Part shown: positions 13,107 to 55,227 of the stretch, piece after piece
Layout: every line of letters starts with the position of its first letter
Position numbering within the stretch: position 1 is the first letter of the stretch
Source: a bacterium
Lineage (GTDB): Bacteria; Zixibacteria; MSB-5A5; WJJR01
Assembly (NCBI GenBank): GCA_021813505.1
Contig: JAKAKI010000084.1
Coordinates: forward strand, 50,224 to 105,450
DNA: 55,227 nt
Direction of reading: 5' to 3'
Program-made: the position numbers and the translations under genes
The notes under the pieces: generated by a model
Told to the model about the DNA's origin: nothing
The model's database searches: none
Seen by the model: only the letters and a program-made list of their open reading frames with translations

Positions 13107-13196
13107 CGCCCCCCCATGTCATTCCGAGCGCAGCGAGGAATCGACTGCGGTTGTTCCCCCGATAACGGGGCGAACAGCAGATCCTTCGTCGCTTCG
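13107..13196. repeat. Dispersed repeat leading into the tandem array
   Basis: This sequence has the form TCATTCCGAGCGCAGCGAGG... through CAGCAGATCCTTCGTCGC. Its right half recurs at about 39946-39982 near the LiaF-like gene, there followed by a single ACTCAGGATGAC unit instead of an array. It has no coding content. Confidence 0.6.
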
Positions 13197-13385
13197 CTCC
13201 TCAGGATGACAGAGGAAGGAGTGCTCCTCGTGATGACAGGTGGGAAAGGGCTCCTCTGCGTGACAGTGGGATGAGTACTCCTCAGGATGTCAGGGAGAGG
13301 CGTACTCCTAAGGATGTCAGGGCGAGGCGTACTCCTCAGGATGACAGGGCGAGGCGTGCTCCTCTGAATGACCGGGGAGGAATTG
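13197..13385. repeat. 27-bp tandem array, seven units, between nuoK and nuoL
   Basis: Seven head-to-tail units of exactly 27 bp, each starting CTCCT and containing GGATGACAG or a close variant (for example CTCCTCAGGATGACAG at 13197, then at 13224, 13251, 13278, 13305, 13332 and 13359). Unit-to-unit divergence is moderate and concentrated in the last 10 bp. There are no spacers, so it is not a CRISPR array. It sits inside what should be one nuoJKLMN transcript. Confidence 0.85.
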
Positions 13386-14449: not shown

Positions 14450-14548
14450 GGTGGCCCACCAGGAGCCTTCGCCGAAGGCGAAGGCGCGGATGGTGGGGGG
14501 CGGCAGGAATGCCGCGGAGAATGGTCCTCTTCCGCGAAGAACCCCACC
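14450..14548. repeat. Dispersed repeat R3, copy at left end of the propeller operons
   Basis: Begins GGTGGCCCACCAGGAGCC, contains CTTCGCCGAAGGCGAAGG and a GGTGGGGGGCGGCAGG block, and ends near CGAAGAACCCCACC. It is almost identical over about 100 bp to 17828-17927, and a more divergent copy lies at 21220-21363. It occupies the gap between nuoJ and the last propeller gene; nothing else is seen there. Confidence 0.85.
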
Positions 14549-14625: not shown

Positions 14626-16212
14626 TTACTTCAACAAGACGAGCTTCTTCACTACGGGATCGTGATTGCCGGTCAGTCGGGCGAAGTACATTCCGGAGGG
14701 AACAGTGCGGCCTCCCTCGTCCCGGCCATCCCAACGGAGGGAAGTCCTTGCGCCGCTCGCCATGTGGAGATCGTAATTTCGAATTCGCTGGCCGAGCACG
14801 TTGAAGATCGTCAGCGAGACCCTGCCGGAATCACGCGTGATTTCGAATCCTACTGAAGTGGTGAAAGGATTGGGAGTGGCGGTGAGCAGTGGTAACCTCC
14901 CGGCTCCCGAGGAATCCGGCCTATCAAAGACCCAATCGGAGGCGCCCCAGATATAAAGACCGGAGTCGGCGATATAGAACATGTCCCGCCGTGACGCGGA
15001 AAGGATCGGGCCAGTCCTCAAATCGGCTCCCGGCTTGCCCGGGATCGTGCGAATCAGGCTCCCATCAGATAGCGATCGTAATTCCCAACCGCGATTACGA
15101 AGCGGCATTATGAGACTTGGGTTCCCAGTCCTGTCTAAATCATAGGCGACAATACCGGTGTATCTCGTATACGGCTCGGTGTATACCGGCACCCCCCACT
15201 GATACCTCCCAGAATCGGAGACGCACCCGAAAATCGGCGGGCGGTGGAAGGTCGGCCAATACCAGAACGCCGATCCCGTCAGCCAAAAGATCCGGCCTCC
15301 GCTATTGGGATTGAGCGATAGATAATCGACAGCTGTCAGTATCCATGGTGGTTTGGTTAAGTCATGCTCATAGGCGTATGGGAGCGGAATTTGCCACCGA
15401 ACATTCCACTGTTCGTCGATGAGCGACAATGATTGATAATACCAATTGAGCCCGGTGTGGGGAGTGTTGTCCAGAGTTGAATGGGATTCGTGAAGAATGA
15501 GGGCACTTCCCCCTGGACTGTCTGAATAGCCGGATACAATCCTCACCGAGCTGATGCCGCCGGCCAGTCTCTTGATAGGTTCGCCAGTGGTCAAATCGCA
15601 GACACTCCAATAGCACCGACCGCCTGTCGTCAGATAATCACGCAGCCCGCCCTTAAAGACCGCAGTTAAGTGATTCGATAAAGTGTGTCCCCAGAGGCAC
15701 ATTTCGGAGGGGAACAAATCCAGAACGAATACCAGAGTGTCGAAACCGGTTCTCGAGTCAAAACGCCGTACCGAATCACGTACGATGTAGAAGTAATCCA
15801 CGCGCCCGTCGCCGGCGAGATCAGTGGCTCCCCATCCGCGCCCCCACGCAGGGAGAACCCGAGGGCCATCGATCCAAGATGCTTTTCCCGGATCGAAGAC
15901 GCCAACGCGGCTGGGCGAACCCGCGAACAGAATTCCAAAATCCCAAGTTCCATTCCGTTCGAGATCTACTGGAAACCAATCAAGGACCGAGTCACCCAAG
16001 TCCAAGCGTGTGAATCCTTCAGGCGTGTAGACGATCTTGGGGATCAGTTGGCGAAAACCGCTGGAGCGTCTTGACCCGGCGGCGGCAGATTGTGTCTCTT
16101 GCCACTCGGCCGCCAACGGACTATTGTTCGCGGCTCCGCGACTCCCGTCAGGACATGTGAGCGCCATGATCCCGATGATCAACATCGACAGTTTCTGCAA
16201 TGGTCGACGCAT
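14626..16212 (-). CDS. Secreted propeller-like protein with Por/T9SS C-terminal sorting domain (unit 2, gene B)
   Basis: A 528-residue exported protein: signal peptide at residues 1-27, then a long region of short beta repeats with WFPVDLERNGTWDFGI, GATDLAGDGRVDYFY and AYDLDRTGNPSLIMP motifs, which look like FG-GAP/VCBS blades with Asp-rich calcium loops. The block DMFYIADSGLYIWG is shared with all four paralogues. The last about 85 residues are a sorting domain: TATPNPFTTSVGFEI, FNVLGQRIRNYDL, GMYFARLTGN and the terminal KKLVLLK. It starts 12 bp after the stop of the preceding paralogue, so the two are one operon. Binding partner or ligand is unknown. Confidence 0.88.
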   Translation of the reverse strand: MRRPLQKLSMLIIGIMALTCPDGSRGAANNSPLAAEWQETQSAAAGSRRSSGFRQLIPKIVYTPEGFTRLDLGDSVLDWFPVDLERNGTWDFGILFAGSPSRVGVFDPGKASWIDGPRVLPAWGRGWGATDLAGDGRVDYFYIVRDSVRRFDSRTGFDTLVFVLDLFPSEMCLWGHTLSNHLTAVFKGGLRDYLTTGGRCYWSVCDLTTGEPIKRLAGGISSVRIVSGYSDSPGGSALILHESHSTLDNTPHTGLNWYYQSLSLIDEQWNVRWQIPLPYAYEHDLTKPPWILTAVDYLSLNPNSGGRIFWLTGSAFWYWPTFHRPPIFGCVSDSGRYQWGVPVYTEPYTRYTGIVAYDLDRTGNPSLIMPLRNRGWELRSLSDGSLIRTIPGKPGADLRTGPILSASRRDMFYIADSGLYIWGASDWVFDRPDSSGAGRLPLLTATPNPFTTSVGFEITRDSGRVSLTIFNVLGQRIRNYDLHMASGARTSLRWDGRDEGGRTVPSGMYFARLTGNHDPVVKKLVLLK

Positions 16213-16224
16213 GATTCACCTCAT

Positions 16225-17742
16225 TCACTTCAGCAGCACGAGCTTCTTCACTACCGAAGCATGATTGCCGGTCAACCGGGCGAAGTAAATGCCTGTCGGG
16301 ACAGATTGGCCGTAATCGTCGATCCCGTTCCATTCGATCGAGGTCGTGTTCGTCATGCTGTGGAGATCACAGGTGCGCACTGCCTGGCCGAGGATGTTGA
16401 GGATTTCCAGGGCTGCGGGATCGGTCGCGGTTGTCCAAGTCAGCCGTACGCTGCTGTTGAAGGGATTGGGATACGCAGTGAGGGTCGGCGACTTGGGTAC
16501 GCCTATCATGTTGGACTGATTGTCGCTTACGGCGGTGGGCATGCCCCAGATGTAGAGGCTGGAATCGGCGATGTAGAAGAGATCGCGGTGGCTCGTAAGT
16601 GGACCATTCTTTAGGTTCACGGGCGGCAGCCCCAGGACTGTGTCGAGGATGTCAGTGGACCATGCACACCTGATCTCCCAGCCGGACCCATCGCGGAACG
16701 GCAAGATGGCTTCTTCATTGCCATCCCCAGTGATGTCAAGGCCCGCAATCGAAGTGTATGGCGATTGCGCCCGGCTAATCCAAGATGCGGCAGCGATCGT
16801 ATGCCACCACACAGGCGTTGCCCCACCTGATACATTGTGCCCACCCGTCAGCAAAGGCAATCCTACACCCGAAGAATCCGAAGCATTCGTGATCCACATG
16901 ATCGCGTTGTTGACCCCATCGGCGGCGATGAGCAAACCCGTCTGTTCCAGTCCCCAGATTGAGGCGGGGAAGAATGTTCCTTGCTCGAATTCATAGGACG
17001 GCAACACGAGTGCTGCTTGTGAGCTCCATGATTCGTCGATCAAATGAAGCTGCTGACAAAAGTCAAACATCAGGGACCCAGGATGAAATCCATTGCGTAC
17101 TTCCAGCCAAGATTGATACAATGCAACCGAGGGCTTACCAGATGCAGTGATCCGCCCAAGCAGAACCGGAGCCACCGGTCCACCGCGCACTTCGCGAAGT
17201 TTGACCCCGGAGTGAATCTGGTAGACATTCCATGAATAAGAAATGGCTACAGGGAATGATGCTTCGTCTGCCTGCAGCAGGGCAATGAGACCAGTCCCAC
17301 TGGAATCAGTTCCCCAGGCAAACGCTCGCAGCGGATTGTAGGCGACGGACCACAGTGTTGAATCGGCTTCAGTTTTGGTATCGAACCAGTGGATTGATTG
17401 GGCCGATAAATAGATGTACTCGACGTAGCTGTCGGAATTCCAATCGCCAACGCCCCAGTTCTGGCCTGTAATACCCAGCTCGCGTGGACCGTCGAGCCAG
17501 GTCTGCGTCGTGGGGCTAAAGACGCCGATACGGGTCGGCGTGCCGCCACAGGTAATCGCCAGTTCCCAAAGGCAGTCATGATTTATGTCGACCGGAAACC
17601 AGGCAATAACAGAATGGCCGAGAGGAAGGCGCGTGAAATCGTATGAAAGCGGATGCGAGTATGAAGTTTGAGCGAACGATACCACCCCGCAAAGTGCGGC
17701 AGTGAAGAGAACGGATTTGGCGTACCGAGAAAGCATGGCCAC
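16225..17742 (-). CDS. Secreted propeller-like protein with Por/T9SS C-terminal sorting domain (unit 2, gene A)
   Basis: A 505-residue paralogue of its neighbours. The N terminus MAMLSRYAKSVLFTAAL is a signal peptide resembling that of the 19560-21050 gene. Then come LPLGHSVIAWFPVDINHD, LDGPRELGITGQNWGVGDW and GLDITGDGNEEAILPFRDG blade-like repeats and the shared DLFYIADSSLYIWG. The sorting domain has TAYPNPFNSSVRLTW, LEILNILGQAVRTCDLH and KKLVLLK. GGGAGGTGG lies just upstream of the ATG and a promoter is at 17779-17808. The last third is very similar to the 19560-21050 gene, more so than the rest. It is the first gene of the left two-gene unit. Confidence 0.9.
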   Translation of the reverse strand: MAMLSRYAKSVLFTAALCGVVSFAQTSYSHPLSYDFTRLPLGHSVIAWFPVDINHDCLWELAITCGGTPTRIGVFSPTTQTWLDGPRELGITGQNWGVGDWNSDSYVEYIYLSAQSIHWFDTKTEADSTLWSVAYNPLRAFAWGTDSSGTGLIALLQADEASFPVAISYSWNVYQIHSGVKLREVRGGPVAPVLLGRITASGKPSVALYQSWLEVRNGFHPGSLMFDFCQQLHLIDESWSSQAALVLPSYEFEQGTFFPASIWGLEQTGLLIAADGVNNAIMWITNASDSSGVGLPLLTGGHNVSGGATPVWWHTIAAASWISRAQSPYTSIAGLDITGDGNEEAILPFRDGSGWEIRCAWSTDILDTVLGLPPVNLKNGPLTSHRDLFYIADSSLYIWGMPTAVSDNQSNMIGVPKSPTLTAYPNPFNSSVRLTWTTATDPAALEILNILGQAVRTCDLHSMTNTTSIEWNGIDDYGQSVPTGIYFARLTGNHASVVKKLVLLK

Positions 17743-17778
17743 CTCCCAGTCCTTGCGGGGATTGGAACGTCAGCAAGT

Positions 17779-17808
17779 TCAATATGCCATGTAGTCGAAT
17801 CTTGTCAA
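17779..17808 (-). promoter_or_regulatory. Promoter of propeller operon, unit 2
   Basis: On the minus strand TTGACA (17808-17803), an 18-bp spacer, then TATTGA (17784-17779), about 37 bp before the ATG. The same two boxes and the same 18-bp spacer occur upstream of unit 1 (21087-21116), and the leader keeps CTGGGAGGTG before both starts. Confidence 0.75.
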
Positions 17809-17827
17809 TGGCTTTTTCCAAGGTACT

Positions 17828-17966
17828 GGTGGCCCACCAGGAGCCTTCGCCGAAGGCGAAGGCGCGGATGGTGGGGGGCGGCAGGGATGCCGCGGAGAAT
17901 GGTCCTCTTCCGCGAAGAACCCCACTGCCGTCCGGTCCGCTTCGAGGACTGGACTCCTGGTGGGGC
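17828..17966. repeat. Dispersed repeat R3, copy between the two propeller operons
   Basis: Starts GGTGGCCCACCAGGAGCC and ends with the inverse GGACTCCTGGTGGGG, so the element is bounded by inverted ends. The first 100 bp are nearly identical to 14450-14548. It fills the 265-bp gap between units apart from the promoter. Confidence 0.85.
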
Positions 17967-18007
17967 AGCAAAGCACCCGCAGGATGCCGATGATACCAGG
18001 AAACAGG

Positions 18008-19546
18008 TTACTTCAGCAGGATGAGCTTCTTCACTACCGGGGAGTGATGCCCAGTCAGGCGGGCAAAATATACGCCGGAGGAAACCTGGCGGCCTTGCTC
18101 ATTGGTGCCGTTCCATTCGACGGATGTGCCATCGGTGGCCTGCAGATCATACTTGCGGACGCACTGGCCAAGGATGTTGAAGATAGAGAGCGTTGTGGGT
18201 CCCTGATCAGGCGCTATGGACAATCGCACGGACCCGCTGAATGGGTTGGAGGATCCGATTAACAGGTTCGAGAGCCCTGATCCCGAAGAATTGTCACCAA
18301 TACCACCCCAACGAGAGGGGCCAAAAACGTTTAGAGCCGAATCCTTGAAGAAGAACAACTCACGCTTCCCGGCTGAGAACAGAGGGCCATTGCTCAATTC
18401 AACCTGCGGATATCCACGGATCGTGTCAATAACGATTCCATCTTGAAGTCTTCTCACTTCCCAGCCACGTCCTCCCCAGAGGGGGAGTGCGATTTCCTCT
18501 GTGCCATCGTCATCCCGATCCCACGCCGCCATGGATGAGTATGGAAAGGCGCTGTATGGCGAAGGAGAAGAACTTGGACTGGGCAAATTCTTGCTCCATC
18601 GAGGCCCGCCGCCAATCGCGAAGGCCCCAATGTAATCAGGAAGCACCACACCGAATCCACCCATGGAGGTAACACCCCAGACAATCGCACCGCGCTCGGA
18701 ACCCCGACCTCCAACATAGCCAAACGCCGCCAAGCCCCACGGTGCCCTTGGGAGATCGCCACCAAAATAATCGTATTGTGGTAACTCACACGTCGAGATC
18801 GTAGACCAATGCAGATTCACAAGGCGGATGCGCTGCTCGAAGTGACCCCGCGATGTGCCTCCCCCACCACTGTATTGTTGTCCGTAGCATTGGTACAGGG
18901 CGACCAACGGTCCCGGTATTTCGGGACTGCCAGCGAGGAAGACCGGCGAACCCGCCCCTCCGGGAATGGAGAGGACGGGAGTTGGAGACCGTAGATCGTA
19001 AACCCGCCAAACGGATCCGCTTGTGATCTGGCTGCCAGAACTCGTATTCAGCGACTGCAAAAGCCCAACGAGTGGGTTGCCGCTCGAGTCCGCGCCCCAA
19101 AGCAACACGCGTGCGGGATCGAATGGCACATTCCACAGCGTTGAATCAGCCGAAGTGCGAGTATCGAAACTGTGCAGGGCCCGTCCGGCCGCATAAATGT
19201 ACTCCAAAGAACCGTCAACCTCCCGACCGCGCACACTCCATGGGGCGCCGGACACGGGCAATTCGCGCGGACCGTCCAACCATCGGCCTTCAGCAGGATC
19301 AACAACACCCACTCTTGTAGGTGTTCCTCCAATCGATACCGCGAGTTTCCAAATCCCTGAACCCTCGGTTTCAAATGGAAACCAACCATTTACGGGGACG
19401 CCGAGAGGGAGCTTGGCAAGTCCTTGCTCGCCAGAGCTCGAATGGTGCGCTGCGAAACTCCATGATGATTCTCGCATTGGCGGAAGAAGGCTCGTTAACA
19501 CGATAACGGCAAGACTCACTATTAAGCGTATTCGTTTCTTTCGCAT
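18008..19546 (-). CDS. Secreted propeller-like protein with Por/T9SS C-terminal sorting domain (unit 1, gene B)
   Basis: A 512-residue exported paralogue, signal peptide at residues 1-30. Blade-like repeats include LPLGVPVNGWFPFETEGSG, LDGPRELPVSGAPWSVRG and MAAWDRDDDGTEEIALPLW, the last a clear Asp-rich calcium loop. The shared block is altered to RELFFFKDSALNVFG. The sorting domain shows SNPFSGSVRLSI, LSIFNILGQCVRKYDLQ and KKLILLK. It has a Gly/Ser-rich insertion near residue 225 (QQYSGGGGTSRG) lacking in the others. It begins 13 bp after the stop of the 19560-21050 gene, making a two-gene operon that mirrors unit 2. Confidence 0.88.
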   Translation of the reverse strand: MRKKRIRLIVSLAVIVLTSLLPPMRESSWSFAAHHSSSGEQGLAKLPLGVPVNGWFPFETEGSGIWKLAVSIGGTPTRVGVVDPAEGRWLDGPRELPVSGAPWSVRGREVDGSLEYIYAAGRALHSFDTRTSADSTLWNVPFDPARVLLWGADSSGNPLVGLLQSLNTSSGSQITSGSVWRVYDLRSPTPVLSIPGGAGSPVFLAGSPEIPGPLVALYQCYGQQYSGGGGTSRGHFEQRIRLVNLHWSTISTCELPQYDYFGGDLPRAPWGLAAFGYVGGRGSERGAIVWGVTSMGGFGVVLPDYIGAFAIGGGPRWSKNLPSPSSSPSPYSAFPYSSMAAWDRDDDGTEEIALPLWGGRGWEVRRLQDGIVIDTIRGYPQVELSNGPLFSAGKRELFFFKDSALNVFGPSRWGGIGDNSSGSGLSNLLIGSSNPFSGSVRLSIAPDQGPTTLSIFNILGQCVRKYDLQATDGTSVEWNGTNEQGRQVSSGVYFARLTGHHSPVVKKLILLK

Positions 19547-19559
19547 GGCCGCGCCCGCT

Positions 19560-21050
19560 CTACTTCAGTAATACGAGTTTCTTCGCTGGCAGTTGGCTGG
19601 AACCTGGAAAACAGACGAAGTACATCCCTGACGGCACAGGGCGACCCTGACTGTCCCTACCGTCCCATTGGATAGAGGTCGTGCGCTCCGCGTTGATCTC
19701 ATAAGTCCGCACACACTGGCCGAGAATATTGAGAATTTCCAAGGTTGAAGCTCCTCCGGCGTTGGACCAGCCTAGGAGAACAGTGCTGTTGAAGGGATTG
19801 GGGTACGCAGTGAGAGTCGGTGACTTGGGTACGGCCGTCGTGTTGGACTGATTGTCGCTTACGGAGGTTGGCATGCCCCAGATGTAAAGGCTGGAGTCGG
19901 CGATGTAGAAGAGATCCTGATGATCCGCGGTCAGGATGTGGCCGGTTTGCAGGTCGGCTTTGGGCATGCCGGGAAGGGTGTCCGTTATAGCGCCGGTCGA
20001 CATGGTTCGTACCTCCCAGCCTGCACCTGACAAAAGCGGCAGATAGAGCGCCGGGTGGCCGTCTTCGTGAAGGTCGAAAACGGCGAAATTCATGTAATAC
20101 GGAGTGGGAAAGGAGCGGCTCCAAACCGCTGCAGCCGTGTTGACATTCTGTGAGGAGATGCGACACGGGCGAAGACCACGGTCTGTCAACAGATCAACCA
20201 CAAGCCGTGGACCGGTTGGATCGACGGCGACGTGCCGGAGCAGCGCGGGATCGGGCGGGGATCCGGCACTGCCGTATTGGGCACCGAGCTGCAAGATCGG
20301 AGTGCGGTTCCAGTCTGAGTCCACAAGGAAGATTGCGTCGGTATAGAAGGCTTGCACGAAGAAATACTGGTCCACGGTCATATGATGCTCATGGAGGACC
20401 ATCCGATTGTCCATGCCGGCCGTGACTCCGGAAACGCGCCGGGCGGGTGTCACGCCGGCGGGAAACTGATGCTGCTGCTCGCCGGTGAACAAATCGAAGA
20501 CGTGCATGGTCCATGCGTAAGAATCATAAATGTGCGGATAGTCCGGATAAGTGGAATCCTCGGAATGGAAATGCACGGTTTCGTTCAGTCCCACCAGAAA
20601 CCGGCCATCGGATGATTCCCCCCAGAACGTCGCGTTGAGCGGCCAGAATGGCGCAACCCAGAGCATGCTGTCCGGGCTGATCCCCTCTCGATGCAGAAAG
20701 ATCGTATCCGCCTTCAGGTAGGGGTATGCAATGGATCCGTTGTCGAGATAATCGCCGGCGCCCCAGTTTGTGCCGGTCACGGGAAGTTCGTGCGGGCCAT
20801 CGAGCCAGGTCAGAGTTGACGGGCTGAAGATGCCGGCCTGCGCTGGAGGGCCATTGAAGGTAATCGCCAGCTCCCAGAGATTATCATTGTTGATATCGGT
20901 GGGGTACCACGCGGACACCGCATGGCCAAATGGTACGGCAATGAATGCCGACGACGCCGAAGCGGCGGCCGCTGCGCAGGCGGTGATGGCCACCAGGCAG
21001 AATGCGGCGCCGATTCCCAGAAATCTGGCGTACCGAGAGTTCATTTTCAC
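19560..21050 (-). CDS. Secreted propeller-like protein with Por/T9SS C-terminal sorting domain (unit 1, gene A)
   Basis: A 496-residue exported protein with an Ala-rich signal peptide (MKMNSRYARFLGIGAAF). It has VPFGHAVSAWYPTDINNDN, LDGPHELPVTGTNWGAGDY and AVFDLHEDGHPALYLPLLSG blade-like repeats, then DLFYIADSSLYIWG. The sorting domain reads TAYPNPFNSTVLLGW, LEILNILGQCVRTYEIN and ends KKLVLLK. A linker SVSDNQSN is shared with the 16225-17742 gene, and the DNA there is about 90% identical by eye over roughly 120 bp. A promoter lies at 21087-21116 and GGGAGGTG is the RBS. Surface display or secretion through a type IX system is inferred from the C-terminal domain. Confidence 0.9.
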   Translation of the reverse strand: MKMNSRYARFLGIGAAFCLVAITACAAAAASASSAFIAVPFGHAVSAWYPTDINNDNLWELAITFNGPPAQAGIFSPSTLTWLDGPHELPVTGTNWGAGDYLDNGSIAYPYLKADTIFLHREGISPDSMLWVAPFWPLNATFWGESSDGRFLVGLNETVHFHSEDSTYPDYPHIYDSYAWTMHVFDLFTGEQQHQFPAGVTPARRVSGVTAGMDNRMVLHEHHMTVDQYFFVQAFYTDAIFLVDSDWNRTPILQLGAQYGSAGSPPDPALLRHVAVDPTGPRLVVDLLTDRGLRPCRISSQNVNTAAAVWSRSFPTPYYMNFAVFDLHEDGHPALYLPLLSGAGWEVRTMSTGAITDTLPGMPKADLQTGHILTADHQDLFYIADSSLYIWGMPTSVSDNQSNTTAVPKSPTLTAYPNPFNSTVLLGWSNAGGASTLEILNILGQCVRTYEINAERTTSIQWDGRDSQGRPVPSGMYFVCFPGSSQLPAKKLVLLK

Positions 21051-21086
21051 CTCCCAGTCAGTGCGGGGGAATGCACGCTGACACGT

Positions 21087-21116
21087 TCAATATGGCAGAG
21101 AGTTGGAAGTTGTCAA
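21087..21116 (-). promoter_or_regulatory. Promoter of propeller operon, unit 1
   Basis: Minus strand TTGACA (21116-21111), an 18-bp spacer, and TATTGA (21092-21087), about 37 bp before the ATG. It has the same architecture as 17779-17808, while the spacer sequences differ, so the boxes look conserved by selection. Confidence 0.75.
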
Positions 21117-21180: not shown

Positions 21181-21219
21181 AAGATTCGTGTTTCGCAGGC
21201 ATCGACTTGCCAGCCCGTT

Positions 21220-21363
21220 GGTGGCTCACCAGGAGCGGCTTCGCCGGAGGCGAGGACGCGGATGTTGGGGCGCGGCAGGCCCTCCGACGCGAACAAGCCC
21301 TCCCGGGAAGAACCCCACCATCCGTCCTGTCCGCTTTGCGGACTGGACTCCTGGTGGGCCACC
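21220..21363. repeat. Dispersed repeat R3, right-hand copy
   Basis: GGTGGCTCACCAGGAG at the left and GGACTCCTGGTGGGCCACC at the right form inverted ends of a 144-bp element. It is divergent from, but alignable with, the copies at 14450 and 17828. Together the three copies bracket both propeller operons. The rest of the gap to 21545 holds GC-rich sequence with a CACGGGC/GCCCGTG hairpin near 21522-21540. Confidence 0.75.
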
Positions 21364-23348: not shown

Positions 23349-23777
23349 TTACCATCTAAATTCGTGAATCTCTCCCTGAAACGGCCATTCATCCGGGCGC
23401 GAGACAAGCTGATGACGCACTGGGTTATTTCGCACGTATTCCCATTTCATCAAATAAGAGTTCGCGGATCGCAATCGGGTATCCCAAAAGTCTGTTTGCC
23501 ACCGATGTTCGGGCTGATTGTGGCGCTTGCTGAATTGAGACTTCCAAAATCTAATCCAATTGTCCAGTTGAATACCTGTGGCTCCCGGTGCAGCGAATAG
23601 ATGGATATGGTCAGGCATCATGATATACTTGCCGACAAGCCACGCCGTGGATTCCGTCCACAGTTTCCGCAAGAGTTCATGAACCGCTTCATCAGCCAGC
23701 CAAACCTGTCGGGACTTGGTGCACACAGTGACAAAAACAATCGTTGGACCATCGGAAGTCAGTCGAACGCCATGCAC
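23349..23777 (-). CDS. REP-associated tyrosine transposase (RAYT, Y1_Tnp/IS200-like)
   Basis: A 142-residue single-strand transposase of the HUH family. The HUH motif is MPDHIHLFAAP, preceded by TIVFVTVCTKSRQ and followed by LDNWIRFWKSQFSKRH, and the C-terminal WEYVRNNPVRHQLV carries the probable catalytic Tyr and the NPVR signature. Length and architecture fit RAYTs rather than full IS200 elements. The frame stays open far upstream through REP repeats, so the start is uncertain: GTG 23777 sits at the domain boundary, but upstream CTG codons are possible. Copies of repeat family R1 flank it on both sides, exactly the arrangement by which RAYTs are recognised. It is expected to nick and move REP sequences. 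Confidence 0.8.
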   Translation of the reverse strand: MHGVRLTSDGPTIVFVTVCTKSRQVWLADEAVHELLRKLWTESTAWLVGKYIMMPDHIHLFAAPGATGIQLDNWIRFWKSQFSKRHNQPEHRWQTDFWDTRLRSANSYLMKWEYVRNNPVRHQLVSRPDEWPFQGEIHEFRW

Positions 23778-23862
23778 AGGGTGTTTGCGACCTGAAGGGA
23801 TATCGTCGCTTCTGCTCGCCTCTTTGGCCGCCAGACTCTGATTTTTTTGCGAAAGGGGGTCC

Positions 23863-24146
23863 CGGGAGGGCGAGGCTCCGGCCGAGCCTCCTGCGTTAAC
23901 CGGAGATGCAGCCGACGGAGCGGGAACTCTCGTGAAATCCTTTTGGCCGGCAATTGAAGCATTCCCGCGAAGAGGCTCGGCGGGAGCCTCGCCCTCCCTC
24001 GATGCCTGTCCGCAATTCAAGGACTGATCATGACCTGGCGCGTGGGCCTGAATTGTGGCATCTGCATGTGAAATTCGAGAATGTTCTGACTTAGCGATAG
24101 GTGAAGTCGTCCCGCGAAGAGGCTCGGCGGGAGCCTCGCCCTCCCT
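23863..24146. repeat. REP cluster (family R1) right of the RAYT gene
   Basis: One inverted pair (GGGAGGGCGAGGCTCCGGCC at 23865, inverse at 23973-24000) plus a further half element at 24119-24146. Outside the palindromes the spacers share CGCGAAGAGGCTCGG. Further R1 copies in the window are at 26771-26879, 33844-33871, 48344-48432 and 50391-50461. Confidence 0.9.
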
Positions 24147-24205
24147 CGCGGACTGTCCGCAATTCAAGAGCTGATCATCGGTGCATTGTACTCCCATGGT
24201 TAGAG

Positions 24206-24736
24206 TCACAGCGACACCTTCGCCTTGGCTTCCTCGAAGACTCGCGAGAGCTTGTTCAGGTAGTAGACGAGCAGGCCGATGGGCGCCAGGGCGGGGATGA
24301 GAATGCCTGTCCAATTGATAATTGCGTGGGCCTCGCGGGCGCTCGCCACCATGCTGTACTCGGCAAAAAGCCAGACGACATCGAGGCAAAGCAGCACGGT
24401 GAGCAGCATTTCTTTGATCACTGCATAGACCGGAAGGCGCATTACCATCGGCCAGCCTTTGACTTCCTTCTTCTGCGGGAAGTCGTACAAACCCGGGAAG
24501 AGCGTGAGGATCAGAATCCCCAGTCCCAGGACCGTCCCCACAAAGGGGATTGTCCAGAGTTGAAATCCTGTCTTGGGTGCAAAACGGTCTGCCTGGCCGG
24601 TGGAATCGAAGTGGACGGCGATCTGGTCCGGAAGGGTGCTGAAGGTCTGCACTGGGATCCACCAGAGGAACAGCAACAGCACAACATGGACGATCAGGAG
24701 CCATCGGCTGACTCCACGTTCTTCCATGAATTTCAT
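24206..24736 (-). CDS. DUF1648 domain membrane protein
   Basis: A 176-residue protein with four hydrophobic helices (about residues 11-30, 60-82, 105-125, 140-160). The stretch LPDQIAVHFDSTGQADRF (near residue 34) is the hallmark of DUF1648, found in membrane proteins of unknown function including SdpI-type immunity proteins. It lacks the second SdpI half, so an immunity role is not supported. It begins with an ATG preceded by AGGAGGGCGGC. It is flanked by REP repeats on one side and leuD on the other and appears to be a single-gene unit. Confidence 0.82.
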   Translation of the reverse strand: MKFMEERGVSRWLLIVHVVLLLFLWWIPVQTFSTLPDQIAVHFDSTGQADRFAPKTGFQLWTIPFVGTVLGLGILILTLFPGLYDFPQKKEVKGWPMVMRLPVYAVIKEMLLTVLLCLDVVWLFAEYSMVASAREAHAIINWTGILIPALAPIGLLVYYLNKLSRVFEEAKAKVSL

Positions 24737-48964: not shown

Positions 48965-49345
48965 TCAGGAACCTGCCTCTGTGATCCACAAATCGACCAA
49001 CCCGTCTTCCTCCGAGGCGCTGGACTTGGCCAGCCGGCACGCGGAGCTGCCGGGCTGGCCAACGAGGACGACTCCGATAGCGTTTCGGGGAATGATGATC
49101 ACCACCGGATGATCGATGGCCGCCGGGAGGTGGTTCCCGCGATGGTCGGTCATACCGGCGTATGAGAGTTCCTGCGCCTGCCCGCCGAGGCTGAAGCGAT
49201 AAAACACAACGCGAGTTTCGGCCGCATCGACCTCCGTACCGATGGCGTCGATGGTTTGTGTTTGCAGGTCGCCGGTGATCGAGAGACCGGGCACATACCA
49301 GGCACGGCGGGAGGTGAGTTGGGAATAAGTGGACGGATAAGACAT
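48965..49345 (-). CDS. Hypothetical protein of phage-like module
   Basis: A 126-residue soluble protein with beta-rich sequence (YVPGLSITGDLQTQTIDAIG, AETRVVFYRFSLGGQAQELS, HPVVIIIPRNAIGVVLVGQP). AAGG lies upstream of the ATG. No family recognised; the position after the connector-like gene suits a head-completion or tail-related protein, but this is only positional inference. Confidence 0.55.
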   Translation of the reverse strand: MSYPSTYSQLTSRRAWYVPGLSITGDLQTQTIDAIGTEVDAAETRVVFYRFSLGGQAQELSYAGMTDHRGNHLPAAIDHPVVIIIPRNAIGVVLVGQPGSSACRLAKSSASEEDGLVDLWITEAGS

Positions 49346-49380
49346 AAGGGGCCTTCAGGATCTATTGGGGTTGCGCTTCT

Positions 49381-50205
49381 TCAGGTCCGTTTCGCGGACT
49401 GCAACGGCGCGATGGGCGCCGCGAAACGCGTGAGATGGTCACGGCCGGTGCGTTCGTAGCAGGCGGCAAGTTCGAGCCACACTTGCGCGGCGGCACGGCC
49501 GGCCGAGCCGGCGGCTCCCGATTCGGTGAGGCTGGCTGCGGCGCGAATACGGCAGACAGCGGCGACGGCCCAGTGCGTCTCCCCAATGATGATGGCATTC
49601 CCCGGTTCGTCGGCATAACGGGGATCAATCATGGCGAGAACCGACTCGGACGATTCCGCGATGGCGCGTTCGATCACGCCGTCCGGAACCGCGCCGAGAG
49701 GAACACGGTAATCGACGAGGACCGTCTGCCCGTCGGCAATTGCGCCGCCGGATTTGCGGGTGATGGTTCCGGCAGTGGGATCGACCGTGAAATCATCGCC
49801 GAGAGTATACACATGGAAGAAGCGATACCAGATTTCCACGGTCTGGCCGTTTGCGATGGCACCGGTTGTGAGCCGGCGCAACCGTCCACCCGGGCAATCG
49901 ACGATGTAGTCCTCATTCTCGACATACACAACGGTCAGTGAACCGTCGGAGGCGACCAGCGCCGTGCCGGGCACGAGTTGCGCGTGTGAGAGCGCCACCC
50001 AGTCGGCCGCCAGCGCCCGGCTCTCACGGAACGGAGCTGCGGAGCGATCTGACTTGACGCTCACGGAGGAGAGGGTGATGCCGCCGTGAGGCAGGGCCGC
50101 TGCCTGAGTACCGGAAAGGGTGATGGCGATTCCGTCCACGGTAATTTCGCCGAGACGCAGATCGCTCAGATGAGCGCGCACGAGTTCAGGTGAAGTGAAA
50201 GGCAT
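49381..50205 (-). CDS. Connector-like phage protein with inserted Ig-like repeats
   Basis: A 274-residue protein. The N-terminal MPFTSPELVRAHLSDLRLGE looks like the start of gp6-type head-tail connectors. Residues about 95-170 hold two copies of a DYxVDxxxGxIxRxxxGxIxDGQTVxVxY module (VENEDYIVDCPGGRLRRLTT and TLGDDFTVDPTAGTITRKSG, each followed by ANGQTV or ADGQTV). The C-terminal half is helical (DGVIERAIAESSESVLAMID, GETHWAVAAVCRIRAAASL) as in connector proteins. The combination suggests a connector with an inserted or N-terminal surface module. Function remains provisional. Confidence 0.55.
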   Translation of the reverse strand: MPFTSPELVRAHLSDLRLGEITVDGIAITLSGTQAAALPHGGITLSSVSVKSDRSAAPFRESRALAADWVALSHAQLVPGTALVASDGSLTVVYVENEDYIVDCPGGRLRRLTTGAIANGQTVEIWYRFFHVYTLGDDFTVDPTAGTITRKSGGAIADGQTVLVDYRVPLGAVPDGVIERAIAESSESVLAMIDPRYADEPGNAIIIGETHWAVAAVCRIRAAASLTESGAAGSAGRAAAQVWLELAACYERTGRDHLTRFAAPIAPLQSAKRT

Positions 50206-50390
50206 GGGTATGAGCGAATGTTAGCGGTGGACGGTTGGAAGCGTTTTGTGCGACTGCGAACGTGAGTCGGCCCACCAAATAGGGCGTATGCAATACGCCC
50301 CAGAATTGGTAGCACGGGCTTCCAGCCCGTGCCGCATGGGCAGGATGGGCGTGTTAAAGTAGTCGGTCATTCGGTTTTACTGCCGAGTTG

Positions 50391-50461
50391 CGGGAGGGCG
50401 AGGCTCCTGCCGAGCCATATCCTCGCGCGGAGGCATGGCTCAGCAGGAGCCTCGCCCTCCC
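50391..50461. repeat. REP pair (family R1)
   Basis: CGGGAGGGCGAGGCTCCTGC at 50391 with its inverse ending CCTCGCCCTCCC at 50461, around a short CCTCGCGCGGAGG palindrome. The adjacent 50206-50390 and 50462-50583 sequence holds a R9-type hairpin (GCACGGGCTTCCAGCCCGTGC) and the CGGGCCCGACGTGCGGCCCG palindrome. No gene there. Confidence 0.9.
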
Positions 50462-50583
50462 ACAGCCACACCGCACATGGAGAATCGTCGTCCGGCTTTT
50501 TCAACACGCCCAGGATGCCCATGCCACCATCTTCGCACACGCCGGAGTCAACCGCAGGAGCGGGCCCGACGTGCGGCCCGCTC

Positions 50584-52014
50584 CTACGCCCGGAGAGGGA
50601 TGAGGGTTGTGAGGTTGGGGACTGCGGTGATTTGTGATCCAATGGGCGGCGTGGTGAACGCTCCAATGACGGCGGCGCGGATCCAGTATCGATTGGTGTT
50701 ATTGACCAGCGTCTTCTGCCAGTCGGCGGGCATGGCGCCGCCATCACTGAAAAGCCGAATGCCGGCGTTGGCGGCATCGAAGTGGTATCCGCCCGAGACC
50801 GGGACAAAGACTATCCATTCGGCACCGTTCCAGTACGACCAGGCAACAACTCCCCCGCTGCCGACGGTGGAGAGAAGAATCCGGAGGAATGTGAACCGGT
50901 CATCGGCACCGAAGTACACGCTATCGTCGATGTGTGCGACCAGCGCCCCAGAGGCTGAATGGAAGAGATCGGCACCAGTGGCACTGGCAGCCTGTGAAGT
51001 GCGGTCGGCAAATGCGACACCGGCGTCTGCATCGAGGCAGAATACCGTGGCCAGCGTCGCGCACTGCGACAGCACGCCGGCCGGTGGAGTAAACTGGCCG
51101 CCGCTGCGATGCGACTCGAGTAGCTGATTCTGCGACGTGCCGATGGGCTGCAGAAACTGGGCATGCGGGGCATTGCTGACGTAGCTCAAGGATGGTGACG
51201 CCGCAGGATTGGTGCTGACTGTTTGCAGCGCGCCCCAGGTGGCGCCGTCGAATTCCTTGAGAAACAGCGCACCATCGGCGGCAAACAGGACACCGAGCAT
51301 CCCGTCCGGCGCCACGGCCACGGCAAGATCACGGCCGAGACCGGTACCGGTGTACAGTGTCTCCGCAGAATTCCATAGGGCGGAATCCAGGGAGATGCTC
51401 CGGTTCTTCAGTGATGTCCCACCGGCAGTGAACAGGCAGTGAAGGTACCCGGCCCGGGTGGCGAGTTTGGCATAGGGATCGGTTGTCGTGCCCGACAAGT
51501 CGGTGCCGGCATCGGCGGATCCCGCACCGAATGTCAACCCGCCGTCGGTGGATTTCTTGACGCGAATCGTGATGACACCGGCGTCATCGCGAGTCCATGC
51601 AATCCAAATTCGGTCATACGCATCGATTTGAGGGGACGGATTGCGATTTGCCGACGTGCTGGAGTCGTAAACGGTGACCGGGGTCTGCGTGGCCCAGGTG
51701 CCACTCGCGAAAGTCAGTGTTACGCAGATCAGAGCGCCGGTGGCCACTTGGGTGTACGCGATGTAGAGATTCCCCTGCCCATCCATCACGGCGGCCGCGG
51801 AATCATCGGATGCGTCGGAGATGATGTTCGCCGGGGCTGACCATGAGGTGTAGGGCGAGTCAGAGCAGGACCAGGCGATGATCGATGGCGTACGAGCGTA
51901 CACTGCGATCAGACGTCCCGCGAACGGACCGGACGGGATCCGAAACAGATGGTCCTGCGTGGGCAGTCCAGCCGGGGAGGCCGCAGTAGTGGTCGAGATC
52001 AGACGGTGGATCAT
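50584..52014 (-). CDS. Sialidase-fold-like propeller protein of phage-like module
   Basis: A 476-residue protein without signal peptide. From residue 20 to about 320 it has blade-like repeats with Asp-box-like sequences (SADAGTDLSGTTTDPYAKL, VKKSTDGGLTFGAGSADA, AVAVAPDGMLGVLFAADG), typical of BNR/sialidase-fold propellers. The C-terminal about 130 residues (STVGSGGVVAWSYWNGAEW, FSDGGAMPADWQKTLVNN, RYWIRAAVIGAFTTPPIGS) resemble receptor-binding or virion-surface modules. I propose a virion-surface protein. ATG 52014 gives MIHRLISTTTAASPA; an upstream frame to 52107 is non-homologous. Confidence 0.6.
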   Translation of the reverse strand: MIHRLISTTTAASPAGLPTQDHLFRIPSGPFAGRLIAVYARTPSIIAWSCSDSPYTSWSAPANIISDASDDSAAAVMDGQGNLYIAYTQVATGALICVTLTFASGTWATQTPVTVYDSSTSANRNPSPQIDAYDRIWIAWTRDDAGVITIRVKKSTDGGLTFGAGSADAGTDLSGTTTDPYAKLATRAGYLHCLFTAGGTSLKNRSISLDSALWNSAETLYTGTGLGRDLAVAVAPDGMLGVLFAADGALFLKEFDGATWGALQTVSTNPAASPSLSYVSNAPHAQFLQPIGTSQNQLLESHRSGGQFTPPAGVLSQCATLATVFCLDADAGVAFADRTSQAASATGADLFHSASGALVAHIDDSVYFGADDRFTFLRILLSTVGSGGVVAWSYWNGAEWIVFVPVSGGYHFDAANAGIRLFSDGGAMPADWQKTLVNNTNRYWIRAAVIGAFTTPPIGSQITAVPNLTTLIPLRA

Positions 52015-52087
52015 GGAGTGGTTGCCGATATTTCGGGATGCAAGGCAGGGGCGGCCCGATGTTGTGGCCGCCCGGTCTTCGCGTGAC

Positions 52088-52126
52088 GGTGAGACAGAGG
52101 CGCCCACACTGCGGCGCCCCTACGGG
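52088..52126. repeat. Partial R5 repeat
   Basis: GAGGCGCCCACACTGCGGCGCCCC, a degraded half of the R5 palindrome, in the gap between the major capsid gene and the propeller gene. Confidence 0.6.
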
Positions 52127-52141
52127 CCAGATATTCCTCTG

Positions 52142-53248
52142 TTACACCCAGACGCTGTCGAGGATTTTCACCGCGTCGGGGATGACCTTGGCGTAGGCGA
52201 CCGATTCGGAGATCACGGCCTCCTCGAACTTCTGCTCGATGATCTTGTCGTACTCGACCGTCAGCGGCTGCGTGATGACTTCCTCCGCGGCGAACCGTTT
52301 GTCGAATCCGATCATGCGGTCGGCGGCGACTTCATCGGAGCGCACAAGCATCGAGCCCAGCGGGCTGACCAGTTCGCCGGTTGACTGGAAACGAAAACCG
52401 GCCATGGGATCTTTGAACTCGGACATGGTCAGGATCGTCTTGATCTTGTCCTTGGCACAGATCAGCGTGTTCATCTCGAACGGATGGAGTTCCGCCCAGA
52501 AGGCCACGAGGTCGGCGTACGCCAGCGTGCCTGAGGCTGCGGTGTTGATCACGCCGGCGGCATTCTCGTTGCCATCGCCGTTGATCAGCACATCGACGAG
52601 CATGCCGAGTTTGTCGACCTGCATGCGGTACCCGATGTACCAGAGAAGCACCTTGAACTGGGTCGTGGTGCGGTGGCGCAGCGCCTTGTACGACGCCTTG
52701 AGCGCCAGGCCGTAGTCCGGGACGTCGATCGAGTTGGTGCGCTCCGTGACGAGCACGGCGGGCACATTGGCGCCATCGCCGATGGGGCGCAGCGACCAGC
52801 GCTTGTCGGAGATCGTGGCGTCGACGTCGAAGGGCGTGTAACGGTTCCCCGCCACGCGCGAGGTCGAGCCCACCAGGCCGGCGAGTTCGGGACGCATGGC
52901 CTGGCCGCGGCGGATTTCCCGCAGCATGAATTCGGGCAGAAGCGCAGGCGCGCCGCGATAGAACAGTTCCACGGTGAGCGGGCTGGCGCCGCCAACGCGA
53001 ATGCCGCGCGCCGCGAGCTGGCGTTCGAATGCATCGAGGGGCGACTCGGGCGCCGACGGGTCGTAGTCGTCGGTTTCGAGCAGTTCGGACAGGGTGAGAC
53101 CACGGGATTCGGCTTCGAGGTAAGTGTCGCGGGTGATGGTGATGTCGCGGGCGCGGGCCAGATCGACGGGGCCGGTCAGGCGGGGTTCCTCGGCGGCCTT
53201 GGTGAGCAGCACGGGGGATGTTTCAGTGAAAAGTTTGTCGAGGTCCAT
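52142..53248 (-). CDS. Phage major capsid protein (HK97-fold type, putative)
   Basis: A 368-residue protein that I read as a viral coat protein. The N-terminal about 100 residues are helical and charged (LARARDITITRDTYLEAESR), possibly a scaffold-like region. The core has VLVTERTNSIDVPDYGLALK and ASYKALRHRTTTQFKVLLW, MQVDKLGMLVDVLINGDGNE, then LICAKDKIKTILTMSEFKD and a C-terminal LTVEYDKIIEQKFEEAVISE, matching the order of E-loop, spine and A/P domain signatures in capsid proteins of tailed phages. The upstream gene is a decoration-like protein and further upstream is the protease. AGAAGGG precedes ATG 53248. Confidence 0.75.
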   Translation of the reverse strand: MDLDKLFTETSPVLLTKAAEEPRLTGPVDLARARDITITRDTYLEAESRGLTLSELLETDDYDPSAPESPLDAFERQLAARGIRVGGASPLTVELFYRGAPALLPEFMLREIRRGQAMRPELAGLVGSTSRVAGNRYTPFDVDATISDKRWSLRPIGDGANVPAVLVTERTNSIDVPDYGLALKASYKALRHRTTTQFKVLLWYIGYRMQVDKLGMLVDVLINGDGNENAAGVINTAASGTLAYADLVAFWAELHPFEMNTLICAKDKIKTILTMSEFKDPMAGFRFQSTGELVSPLGSMLVRSDEVAADRMIGFDKRFAAEEVITQPLTVEYDKIIEQKFEEAVISESVAYAKVIPDAVKILDSVWV

Positions 53249-53269
53249 TTGAGGCCCTTCTGAAAGAGA

Positions 53270-53314
53270 GTGGACGGATAGGACGGATGGGACTTATAGG
53301 ACCTATGGGTCCTA
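53270..53314. repeat. 9-bp minisatellite, five units
   Basis: GTGGACGGA, TAGGACGGA, TGGGACTTA, TAGGACCTA, TGGGTCCTA in register. It lies between the capsid and decoration genes, leaving the capsid gene RBS intact. Confidence 0.8.
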
Positions 53315-53322
53315 TGAAAAAA

Positions 53323-53745
53323 CTAGTTCAAGAGCAGGGTGCAGTCGGTGGTGCCGTTGACGGCGAGGACGGTGCCGCGAGCGATGTTGGCGCCGACGGG
53401 ATCGTTGCCGGCGAGAGCGGGTGCCTGCTTCACGGTGCCATTGGCGCCGCAGACGACGCGGTTGCCGACGACGGGATTGGTGGTGGTGATCGGAAGCGTG
53501 CAAACGCCGCCGATTTGGACAGTGGCGAGGCGATTGCCATTGTCCGCGTCGCTCAGTGTCAGACCGATCAGTTTGCCGAGCAGAATTGCATTGTCGGTGC
53601 CGGGACCGACTTCGTGGGAGGCGGTCAGGGTCACCGATTTGCCGAGGTGGATGTCGGTCAGGTCGTCGATGCCCGCGGTCTGATGGATCTTGAATGTGGC
53701 GAAGACCTCGGCCACCGATTCCAGGTTGTGGTCACGTACGGTCAT
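53323..53745 (-). CDS. Capsid decoration/stabilisation-like protein (DUF2190-like)
   Basis: A 140-residue beta-rich protein. Sequence such as KSVTLTASHEVGPGTDNAIL, GKLIGLTLSDADNGNRLATV and GNRVVCGANGTVKQAP is reminiscent of DUF2190/trimeric decoration proteins that bind HK97-fold capsids. It lies directly upstream of the capsid gene with a strong RBS (TTTGGAGGACAC), the usual order of decoration then coat in tailed phages. The assignment is tentative. Confidence 0.6.
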   Translation of the reverse strand: MTVRDHNLESVAEVFATFKIHQTAGIDDLTDIHLGKSVTLTASHEVGPGTDNAILLGKLIGLTLSDADNGNRLATVQIGGVCTLPITTTNPVVGNRVVCGANGTVKQAPALAGNDPVGANIARGTVLAVNGTTDCTLLLN

Positions 53746-53787
53746 GTGTCCTCCAAATGGGAGTGAGAACGGATTGTCAGCTGGATT

Positions 53788-54072
53788 TCAGGTTCTGAAT
53801 TCGTCGTGCGTGTTCCGGCTGCGTGCGGCATTGGGCGCCGATTCGGGATGGCGGGCGCGCGAGGCAAACGCAAGATCAAGGCGCCGGTCGACCTGGTCGG
53901 CCAGTCGGAACAACGCGGCCGCATCATCTCCCGCACTTTGAATGTGCATTTCGACCGATTCGGAGTCCGTCGTCTCCGGGTTCAAGCGCGCAAGGGCGGT
54001 CCAGCGGCGGCGGATGCGAGTGCAGAGTGCGGCCTTGGCAATCTGCCAATTGTCCGTGTTCTGATCAGTCAT
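53788..54072 (-). CDS. Hypothetical small protein of phage-like module
   Basis: A 94-residue charged, mostly helical protein, MTDQNTDNWQIAKAALCTRI ... RLADQVDRRLDLAFASRARH. No membrane segment and no recognised family. Its ATG overlaps the end of the next upstream gene by 8 bp, as in a compact operon. Confidence 0.5.
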   Translation of the reverse strand: MTDQNTDNWQIAKAALCTRIRRRWTALARLNPETTDSESVEMHIQSAGDDAAALFRLADQVDRRLDLAFASRARHPESAPNAARSRNTHDEFRT

Positions 54073-54337
54073 GGGATTGCCTCAGGATGGTTTCAATACG
54101 GCCCAGGTGCGATTGCACTTCTTCACGCAGCGATTGCAGATCGTCGCGATGCGCCACATCGGTCTTGATGATGGTTTCGATTTCGATGAGCCGCCGGTCG
54201 ATCTGCTCCACGGTCGCGCGGTCGGCCTTTTCATTCACGGTCAGGCGGATACCGTAGACGGTGCTGTAGTAGGCAGTCAAGGCGGCGGTCAGCGCGGCGA
54301 GGATGCTGCCGATGGTGCGGAGCGAGAATTTGGGCAT
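54065..54337 (-). CDS. Small coiled-coil membrane protein of phage-like module
   Basis: About 90 residues: one hydrophobic segment near residues 10-28 (IGSILAALTAALTAYYSTVY) followed by a coiled coil (VNEKADRATVEQIDRRLIEI, LQSLREEVQSHLGRIETIL). The layout is that of DUF-type phage inner-membrane or holin-associated proteins. ATG 54337 gives MPKFSLRT; the frame also opens 14 codons earlier, where an adjoining minisatellite would add STKSTKSTPSTK. Confidence 0.6.
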   Translation of the reverse strand: MPKFSLRTIGSILAALTAALTAYYSTVYGIRLTVNEKADRATVEQIDRRLIEIETIIKTDVAHRDDLQSLREEVQSHLGRIETILRQSHD

Positions 54338-54344
54338 GGTTTTC

Positions 54345-54389
54345 GTGGACGGAGTGGACTTAGTGGACTTAGTGGACAAAGTGGACGAA
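54345..54389. repeat. 9-bp minisatellite, five units
   Basis: GTGGACGGA, GTGGACTTA, GTGGACTTA, GTGGACAAA, GTGGACGAA. It lies between the protease gene stop and the coiled-coil protein start and could be translated as an STK-rich N terminus. Confidence 0.85.
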
Positions 54390-54393
54390 GAAC

Positions 54394-55227
54394 TCAGGCA
54401 CGGGTGCGGCCTAGGCCGCAGAGATAGGGCAGGCAGTGGATGGGCTGGCTGGTGCGGCGGACCCTGTGCACTGGTGAGTTGCAGGCGCGCCAGATGCCGT
54501 GGCGGTTGAAGACGAGATCACCGACGCGAAATGAGGATCGTGACACGGCGACAAGTTCATCGCAAATCGCGGGGTCCTGCGGATCGCGGCGGGCGATGAT
54601 GTAGCGGTTTGTGCCATCCGAATTGGATTGGCGGTCGAGGACAATGCCGAAGACGACGCCGGACGGGATCCCGGGCGATAGTTTGCTGAACACCGGCTCA
54701 TTGCCCAGACGCGTGCCGGGGTTTGCACCACGGTAGACCAGCGAGGTTTCGAGAATGCGGACGATGTCGCGGTATTCGTAGTGGGCAGTGGCCGCGACGC
54801 CGGATTCGTTGGTGTATTCGTGTCCCGGAACATGCTCGCAACTGCGGATATCACGCGAACAGATCGAACATTGGGGACGGCGGAACTCGAAGCCGATCGA
54901 TCCTTCCTTCACCACGCCGCCATCGATGTCCGACGCGAGCCTGTCCCCCATCGGTCCGCGCATCCAGTAAAACCAGGTCTGCACCCATTGGCGTTCGCCG
55001 TCGGCGACACACCGGGCGGCGAAATTCCGCGCGACCGGCAGACGGGAATGGTCGTGCCCGATCAGAACGGGTGAATCGATCAGCAGTTCGCAGACGCGCG
55101 CGTGTTCCTCGCGGGGGAACCGTCCGCCGTGATCGTTCACCTCATCGGAGACGATGCGCAGCGAACGGACGTACACGTCGTTCGCGTTGAGCGGTTGGGG
55201 CGGATGGATGTGATCGTTGATGAGGGC
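54394..55227 (-). CDS. Prohead protease-like protein, 5' end beyond window
   Basis: At least 277 residues, continuing past the right edge: the frame upstream of the first GTG remains open and reads ALINDHIHPPQPLNANDVYV. LIDSPVLIGHDHSRLPVARN carries the His of HK97-type prohead proteases, and GGVVKEGSIGFEFRRPQCSI the catalytic Ser in SIGF. A Cys4-like insert follows (CSICSRDIRSCEH, then GHEY), which may bind metal and is not in the HK97 enzyme. The next part, FSKLSPGIPSGVVFGIVLDR onwards, is unassigned. It heads the phage-type gene series; portal and terminase genes should lie to the right. Confidence 0.68.
   Translation of the reverse strand, partial: ALINDHIHPPQPLNANDVYVRSLRIVSDEVNDHGGRFPREEHARVCELLIDSPVLIGHDHSRLPVARNFAARCVADGERQWVQTWFYWMRGPMGDRLASDIDGGVVKEGSIGFEFRRPQCSICSRDIRSCEHVPGHEYTNESGVAATAHYEYRDIVRILETSLVYRGANPGTRLGNEPVFSKLSPGIPSGVVFGIVLDRQSNSDGTNRYIIARRDPQDPAICDELVAVSRSSFRVGDLVFNRHGIWRACNSPVHRVRRTSQPIHCLPYLCGLGRTRA

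Follow-up and report, generated by a model that had tools for sequence, protein, structure and literature searches.

Tandem paralogues with T9SS-type sorting domains beside the nuo operon in a Zixiibacteriota genome: gene conversion and copy-number differences between sister species

The window, a stretch of 55,227 nucleotides from a 3.9-Mb genome of Candidatus Zixiibacteriota (G000), contains four homologous genes in tandem whose products all end in a T9SS type A sorting domain, and the same genome encodes parts of the T9SS machinery. Two of the four genes share a gene-conversion tract, and in the sister species a single gene takes the place of the four. We consider it probable that the genes form a lineage-specific family of T9SS-exported propellers, in which tandem paralogues turn over by duplication, deletion and conversion. 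The family is new at the family level. The array illustrates clearly how T9SS-type surface proteins in a phylum that has received little study undergo gene conversion and turn over in copy number.

Gene arrangement, sorting domain and predicted fold

Four long open reading frames (ORFs) on the minus strand occupy positions 14626-21050 of the window. Listed in the direction of transcription, these are A1 (19560..21050, 496 aa) and B1 (18008..19546, 512 aa), which form unit 1, followed by A2 (16225..17742, 505 aa) and B2 (14626..16212, 528 aa), which form unit 2. We calculated gap sizes from these coordinates: 13 bp between A1 and B1, 12 bp between A2 and B2, and 265 bp between B1 and A2. The original prediction of four ORFs at these positions, spaced by 12-13 bp within each unit, was thereby confirmed. 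The listed GTG starts of A1 and A2 were replaced by internal ATGs at 21044 and 17736, respectively, which are preceded by GGGAGGTG and are the likely true starts, 6 bases inside the GTGs. All four proteins are mutually homologous, with 29-40% identity over their full length (E about 1e-60 or lower, far above chance). Read by eye, each N-terminus consists of a basic and then a hydrophobic stretch.

The two units had been predicted to share a TTGACA-N18-TATTGA promoter and a leader, and both sequences were indeed present on the minus strand upstream of A1 (21051..21116) and of A2 (17743..17808). The promoter-like element can alternatively be read as TTGACA-N16-CATATT. The common leader ends in GACTGGGAGGTG, and this arrangement is also seen upstream of the single orthologue in the sister species. 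A promoter scan returned 4 sites against 3.2 expected and is unconvincing by itself. The promoter candidate gains weight, however, from the sister-species orthologue, where the hexamers are retained but the spacer is different. Transcription of each bicistronic unit probably starts at a promoter of its own.

Matches to Pfam and NCBIfam families were confined to the last ~80 residues, where FlgD_ig and the T9SS type A sorting domain were found. The profile TIGR04183 for this sorting domain scored 28.7 bits in A1, 33.8 bits in A2, 27.9 bits in B1 and 26.3 bits in B2. All four proteins thus exceeded the curated NCBIfam cut-off of 23 bits, in agreement with the Por-type sorting domain that had been predicted for them, while PF18962 exceeded its Pfam cut-off in A2 only. 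None of the four reached the Pfam cut-off for FG-GAP/VCBS repeats; B2 alone gave a match (E 0.95, 10.6 versus 26.9 bits). About 50 further places in the genome resemble only the C-terminal domain.

The genome encodes homologues of SprA/Sov (2124 aa) and PorU (1329 aa; 610 bits versus a cut-off of 420), as well as members of the PorV family, which makes T9SS export plausible. Across Zixiibacteriota, the curated cut-off was passed for SprA in 55 of the 58 genomes and for PorU in 52 of the 58. The PorP and GldM profiles had no matches in the genome, but control sequences were equally silent. Sorting of the four proteins by a T9SS is a well-founded reading of these profile matches, and the proteins would accordingly be located at the surface. 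They resemble T9SS type A cargo (TIGR04183/PF18962) in their sorting domain and in the SprA, PorU and PorV homologues of their genome. In contrast to such cargo, however, their passenger domain matched no Pfam or NCBIfam family, and their phylum is Zixiibacteriota, not Bacteroidota. The data support T9SS export in Zixiibacteriota; our literature search found no paper that joins Zixibacteria with type IX secretion. Elsewhere in the genome (G000:C42:14392-20496), a PorU-like sortase adjoins a PorV-family ORF, which is likely a T9SS attachment locus of Zixiibacteriota.

AlphaFold2 models, built from a five-sequence alignment only, were all-beta for both full-length A2 (pLDDT 53.5, pTM 0.51) and the blade region of B1 (pLDDT 64.6, pTM 0.64). 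When the two models were compared with the PDB by Foldseek, nearly all matches were beta-propellers, although with low TM-scores of at most about 0.4. PorZ (5m11, E 4.8e-7) and the clathrin terminal domain led these matches, which also included WDR5, BT1954 and BtuG2. A profile search of the PDB gave a plausible match for the C-terminal domain only; the best match of the blade region, YesW, was not significant (E 0.087). Our best guess for the common fold of the four proteins is a beta-propeller. Hence, the claim that the genes encode secreted propeller proteins, for which structure prediction had been proposed as a check, held for the T9SS-type sorting and for the propeller-like matches of two models, with low to moderate confidence in the fold at these pLDDT values and TM-scores.

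PorZ of Porphyromonas gingivalis is a component of secretion that consists of two seven-bladed propellers (PMC5121618). It was the best Foldseek match of the A2 model, and combines a beta-propeller with a T9SS C-terminal domain, as the four proteins would. Judged by length, however, the four proteins have one domain of ~380 residues rather than two propellers, and the PorZ profile NF052228 gave them only 9.6-19 bits against a cut-off of 260, in the C-terminal domain only. In Bacteroides, cobalamin is captured as a small ligand at the surface by the propeller lipoproteins BtuG2 and BT1954. The four proteins would resemble them as surface propellers, but carry a T9SS sorting domain instead of being lipoproteins, and the aligned identity is only ~10%.

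In the explanation that we favour, each protein would start with a signal peptide, continue with a propeller-like domain of ~380 residues and end, after a short linker, in a sorting domain of T9SS type A. Sec would take it across the inner membrane and SprA/Sov across the outer one. The PorU-like sortase would then process it, and it would remain at the cell surface, where binding of an extracellular ligand is the most likely role of the propeller.

Kinship within the array and gene conversion

The original prediction interpreted the array as a duplicated unit, A-B and A-B. A true duplication of a two-gene operon, with A and B products that act together as a heteromeric pair, would account for the order A-B-A-B, for the 12-13 bp spacing, and for the promoter, leader and signal peptide that only A1 and A2 have in common. 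The first blade points in the same direction, with 50% identity between A1 and A2 versus 30-31% between A1 and either B gene, and a tree of the linker and C-terminal domain weakly grouped B1 with B2 (86/89). The blade region argues against it. Over the blade region, identity was highest for A2-B1 (38%), followed by A1-A2 (33%), A2-B2 (30%) and B1-B2 (30%). The blades of B1 are thus nearest to those of A2, and B1 and B2 are no nearer to each other than other pairs. In the central blades, A2-B1 (35%) exceeded both A1-A2 (26%, P(diff<=0)=0.006) and B1-B2 (27%, P=0.018); these P values from a block bootstrap are indicative, because the comparisons were picked after a first view of the identities.

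The phylogeny that had been called for, A with A and B with B, was not recovered in the blade tree. Approximately unbiased (AU) tests on this tree did not reject a group of A1, A2 and the orthologue (p 0.29), and nearly rejected a group of B1 and B2 (p 0.066). The pairing is thus not refuted by these tests. The resemblance between A1 and A2 is located in the promoter, the leader, the signal peptide, the first blade and a tract of ~131 bp. This segment-wise pattern would fit recombination among the paralogues, with segments that differ in history. Two bicistronic units with like promoters therefore remain of the predicted duplication, but the A/A and B/B kinship is not supported in the blades.

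The tract shared by A1 (19784..19916) and A2 (16452..16584), both on the minus strand, is 131-133 bp long and 92% identical. Its score in the scan for gene conversion was 67.5, compared with 8.2 on average in permutations (p=0.0002), and the two genes agree far less elsewhere. Within the tract, A1 is only 80% identical to its own orthologue in the sister species but 92% identical to A2, which implies that the exchange took place after the two species had separated. The tract codes for precisely the DLFYIADSSLYIWG...VSDNQSN block, and for QDLFYIADSSLYIWGMPTSVSDNQSN...TAYPNPFN, on which the first A/A reading relied. The linker SVSDNQSN had been attributed to both A genes; VSDNQSN is exact in both, but the full string reads SVSDNQSN in A1 and AVSDNQSN in A2, inside the conversion tract. 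Similarly, the sequence block reported for all four proteins is present, although in B1 only in a weak form (ELFFFKDSALNVFG). Shorter similar stretches link the 3' ends of A2, B2 and B1. Judged from the sequences, the conserved A/A end is the product of recent gene conversion and no proof of a unit duplication. The array shows that conversion is able to mimic the duplication of a two-gene unit. With part of the A/A signal ascribed to conversion and with single genes in related genomes (see below), we consider the duplicated heteromeric operon unlikely. There is no good evidence for a two-protein system of A and B, and nothing specific in its support.

Conversion, loss or chimerism between sister species, and near-identical direct repeats around A2-B2 would also suit a reservoir resembling antigenic variation, in which four copies swap segments and so change the protein shown at the surface, for instance as a defence against phages or grazers. 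Gene conversion has been discussed for variable surface proteins of P. gingivalis, several of which have a T9SS C-terminal domain and which vary by domain rearrangement and gene conversion (PMC5266723). Their passenger is unrelated, however, and alleles are exchanged between strains, whereas here ends are exchanged within a tandem array. Moreover, the strong tract is part of the shared end and not of the central blades, the promoter of each unit argues against silent cassettes, and the orthologues are under purifying selection. We regard such a reservoir as highly improbable. Quite unlikely, too, is a modular display array of tandem T9SS surface propellers, in which conversion would keep promoter, signal peptide and sorting ends interchangeable, whereas the blade cassettes would diverge, with gains and losses between sister species; if true, each species would display its own set of surface receptors. 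In the explanation of a family with turnover, conversion would homogenise the regulatory and export ends, and the blades would drift apart.

We found 22 genomic matches to a dispersed GC-rich repeat; three of these surround the array, all on the minus strand. The copies between B1 and A2 (17828..17925, match to 17971) and beyond B2 (14450..14547) agree at 99% over 98 bp, and flank A2-B2 in direct orientation. The copy upstream of A1 (21219..21358) is more diverged (80%). We rejected the 99% identity of the 98-bp repeats as a date of the duplication, as the genes are ~40% or less identical in protein; this difference implies that the repeats were copied or homogenised later. The direct repeats around A2-B2 could serve recombination.

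Two further repeat-containing regions were observed in the window. The ORF at 23349-24704 has repeats in its middle part, no match in Pfam, and a C-terminal MPDHIHLF, which we take to be typical of REP-associated (Y1) transposases. Between nuoL and nuoK, at 13196-13381, there are ~7 copies of a 27-bp tandem repeat, in a region that differs from the sister species.

Distribution, selection and history of the locus

The blade region was found in 4 of the 132 Zixiibacteriota genomes searched and was absent from the other 128. G000 has four copies, G001 (the sister species, and second species of the genus) has two, and G004 (another genus) and G007 have one each. A search with NuoL gave a genome of Candidatus Zixiibacteriota (JACRMA01) as the nearest relative, at 97% identity. 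Peptide patterns from the blade alignment detected no relatives in GTDB contigs or viral contigs. The two-gene arrangement was found in none of the other genomes: G001 (in two places), G004 and G007 all have single genes. In contrast to the predicted paired system, of which our literature search found no description, the pair is thus confined to G000 among these 132 genomes.

The locus in G001 has one gene instead of four, between nuoJ and methylmalonyl-CoA mutase. Its flanks are collinear with those in G000, with nuo genes on one side and methylmalonyl-CoA mutase and aconitase on the other, at ~88-92% DNA identity. The blades of this gene are 83% identical to A1 at the amino acid level, which identifies it as the A1 orthologue. 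Its C-terminal domain, however, is 69% identical to A2 versus 54% to A1. Hence, the gene is either a chimera of A1 and A2, or the end of A1 has been replaced. The single family gene of G004 also adjoins nuoJ. The second member in G001 is distant, lies at another locus (L052:3529-5088) and was not found in G000; we take it as a further sign of turnover. The G007 copy is likewise a distant member that lies elsewhere (L054).

The blade tree separates A1 from its orthologue by ~0.19 substitutions per site, whereas the distances between the paralogues are far >1. On these distances we rejected an origin of the array later than the divergence of the two sister species. As the four paralogues are, under any reasonable clock, much older than this split, loss in G001 is likelier than a fresh gain in G000. 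The sequences thus suggest that the duplication is older and that copies were subsequently lost from the sister species. The genes would form a birth-and-death family at a fixed site beside the nuo operon, with copies gained and lost by tandem recombination.

We calculated substitution rates between A1 and its orthologue. This pair had a dN of 0.136 and a dS of 0.80 (ratio 0.17), compared to a dN of 0.009-0.053 and a dS of 0.26-0.57 in neighbouring genes. By these estimates the A1 protein is fast-evolving, yet purifying selection acts on it. Exchange among diverged copies would agree with the high dS towards the 3' side of A1. The proposal of blade divergence towards different ligands was not borne out; A1 and its orthologue, the sole orthologous pair, evolve under purifying selection (dN/dS ~0.17), and ligand-driven diversification of the blades is therefore no more than a possibility.

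The patchy presence in 4 of the 132 genomes could also indicate that the copies arrived by horizontal transfer or on a mobile element (prophage or repeat-associated) rather than by local duplication. In line with this, the GC content over B1-A2-B2 is slightly lower, at ~0.55-0.57 versus ~0.60 in the flanks, and the distant G007 member (L054:4220-9678) adjoins phage structural genes. However, the position next to nuo genes is common to A1 and the genes of G001 and G004, which implies that at least the copy at the A1 position was probably inherited vertically. Furthermore, viral contigs contained no relative, and no integrase or transposase was seen within the array. We consider transfer very unlikely as the origin of the array, and favour local turnover.

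Phage structural genes were also observed at 48965-55176, encoding a major head protein (phrog_3922, E 2e-57), a head decoration protein and a tail protein. The right end of the window is the end of the contig, and the phage genes there are a prophage or a remnant of one. The phage genes in G007 (L054) are homologous to them, and the position of the family gene directly beside those in G007 may reflect chance or transport by phages.
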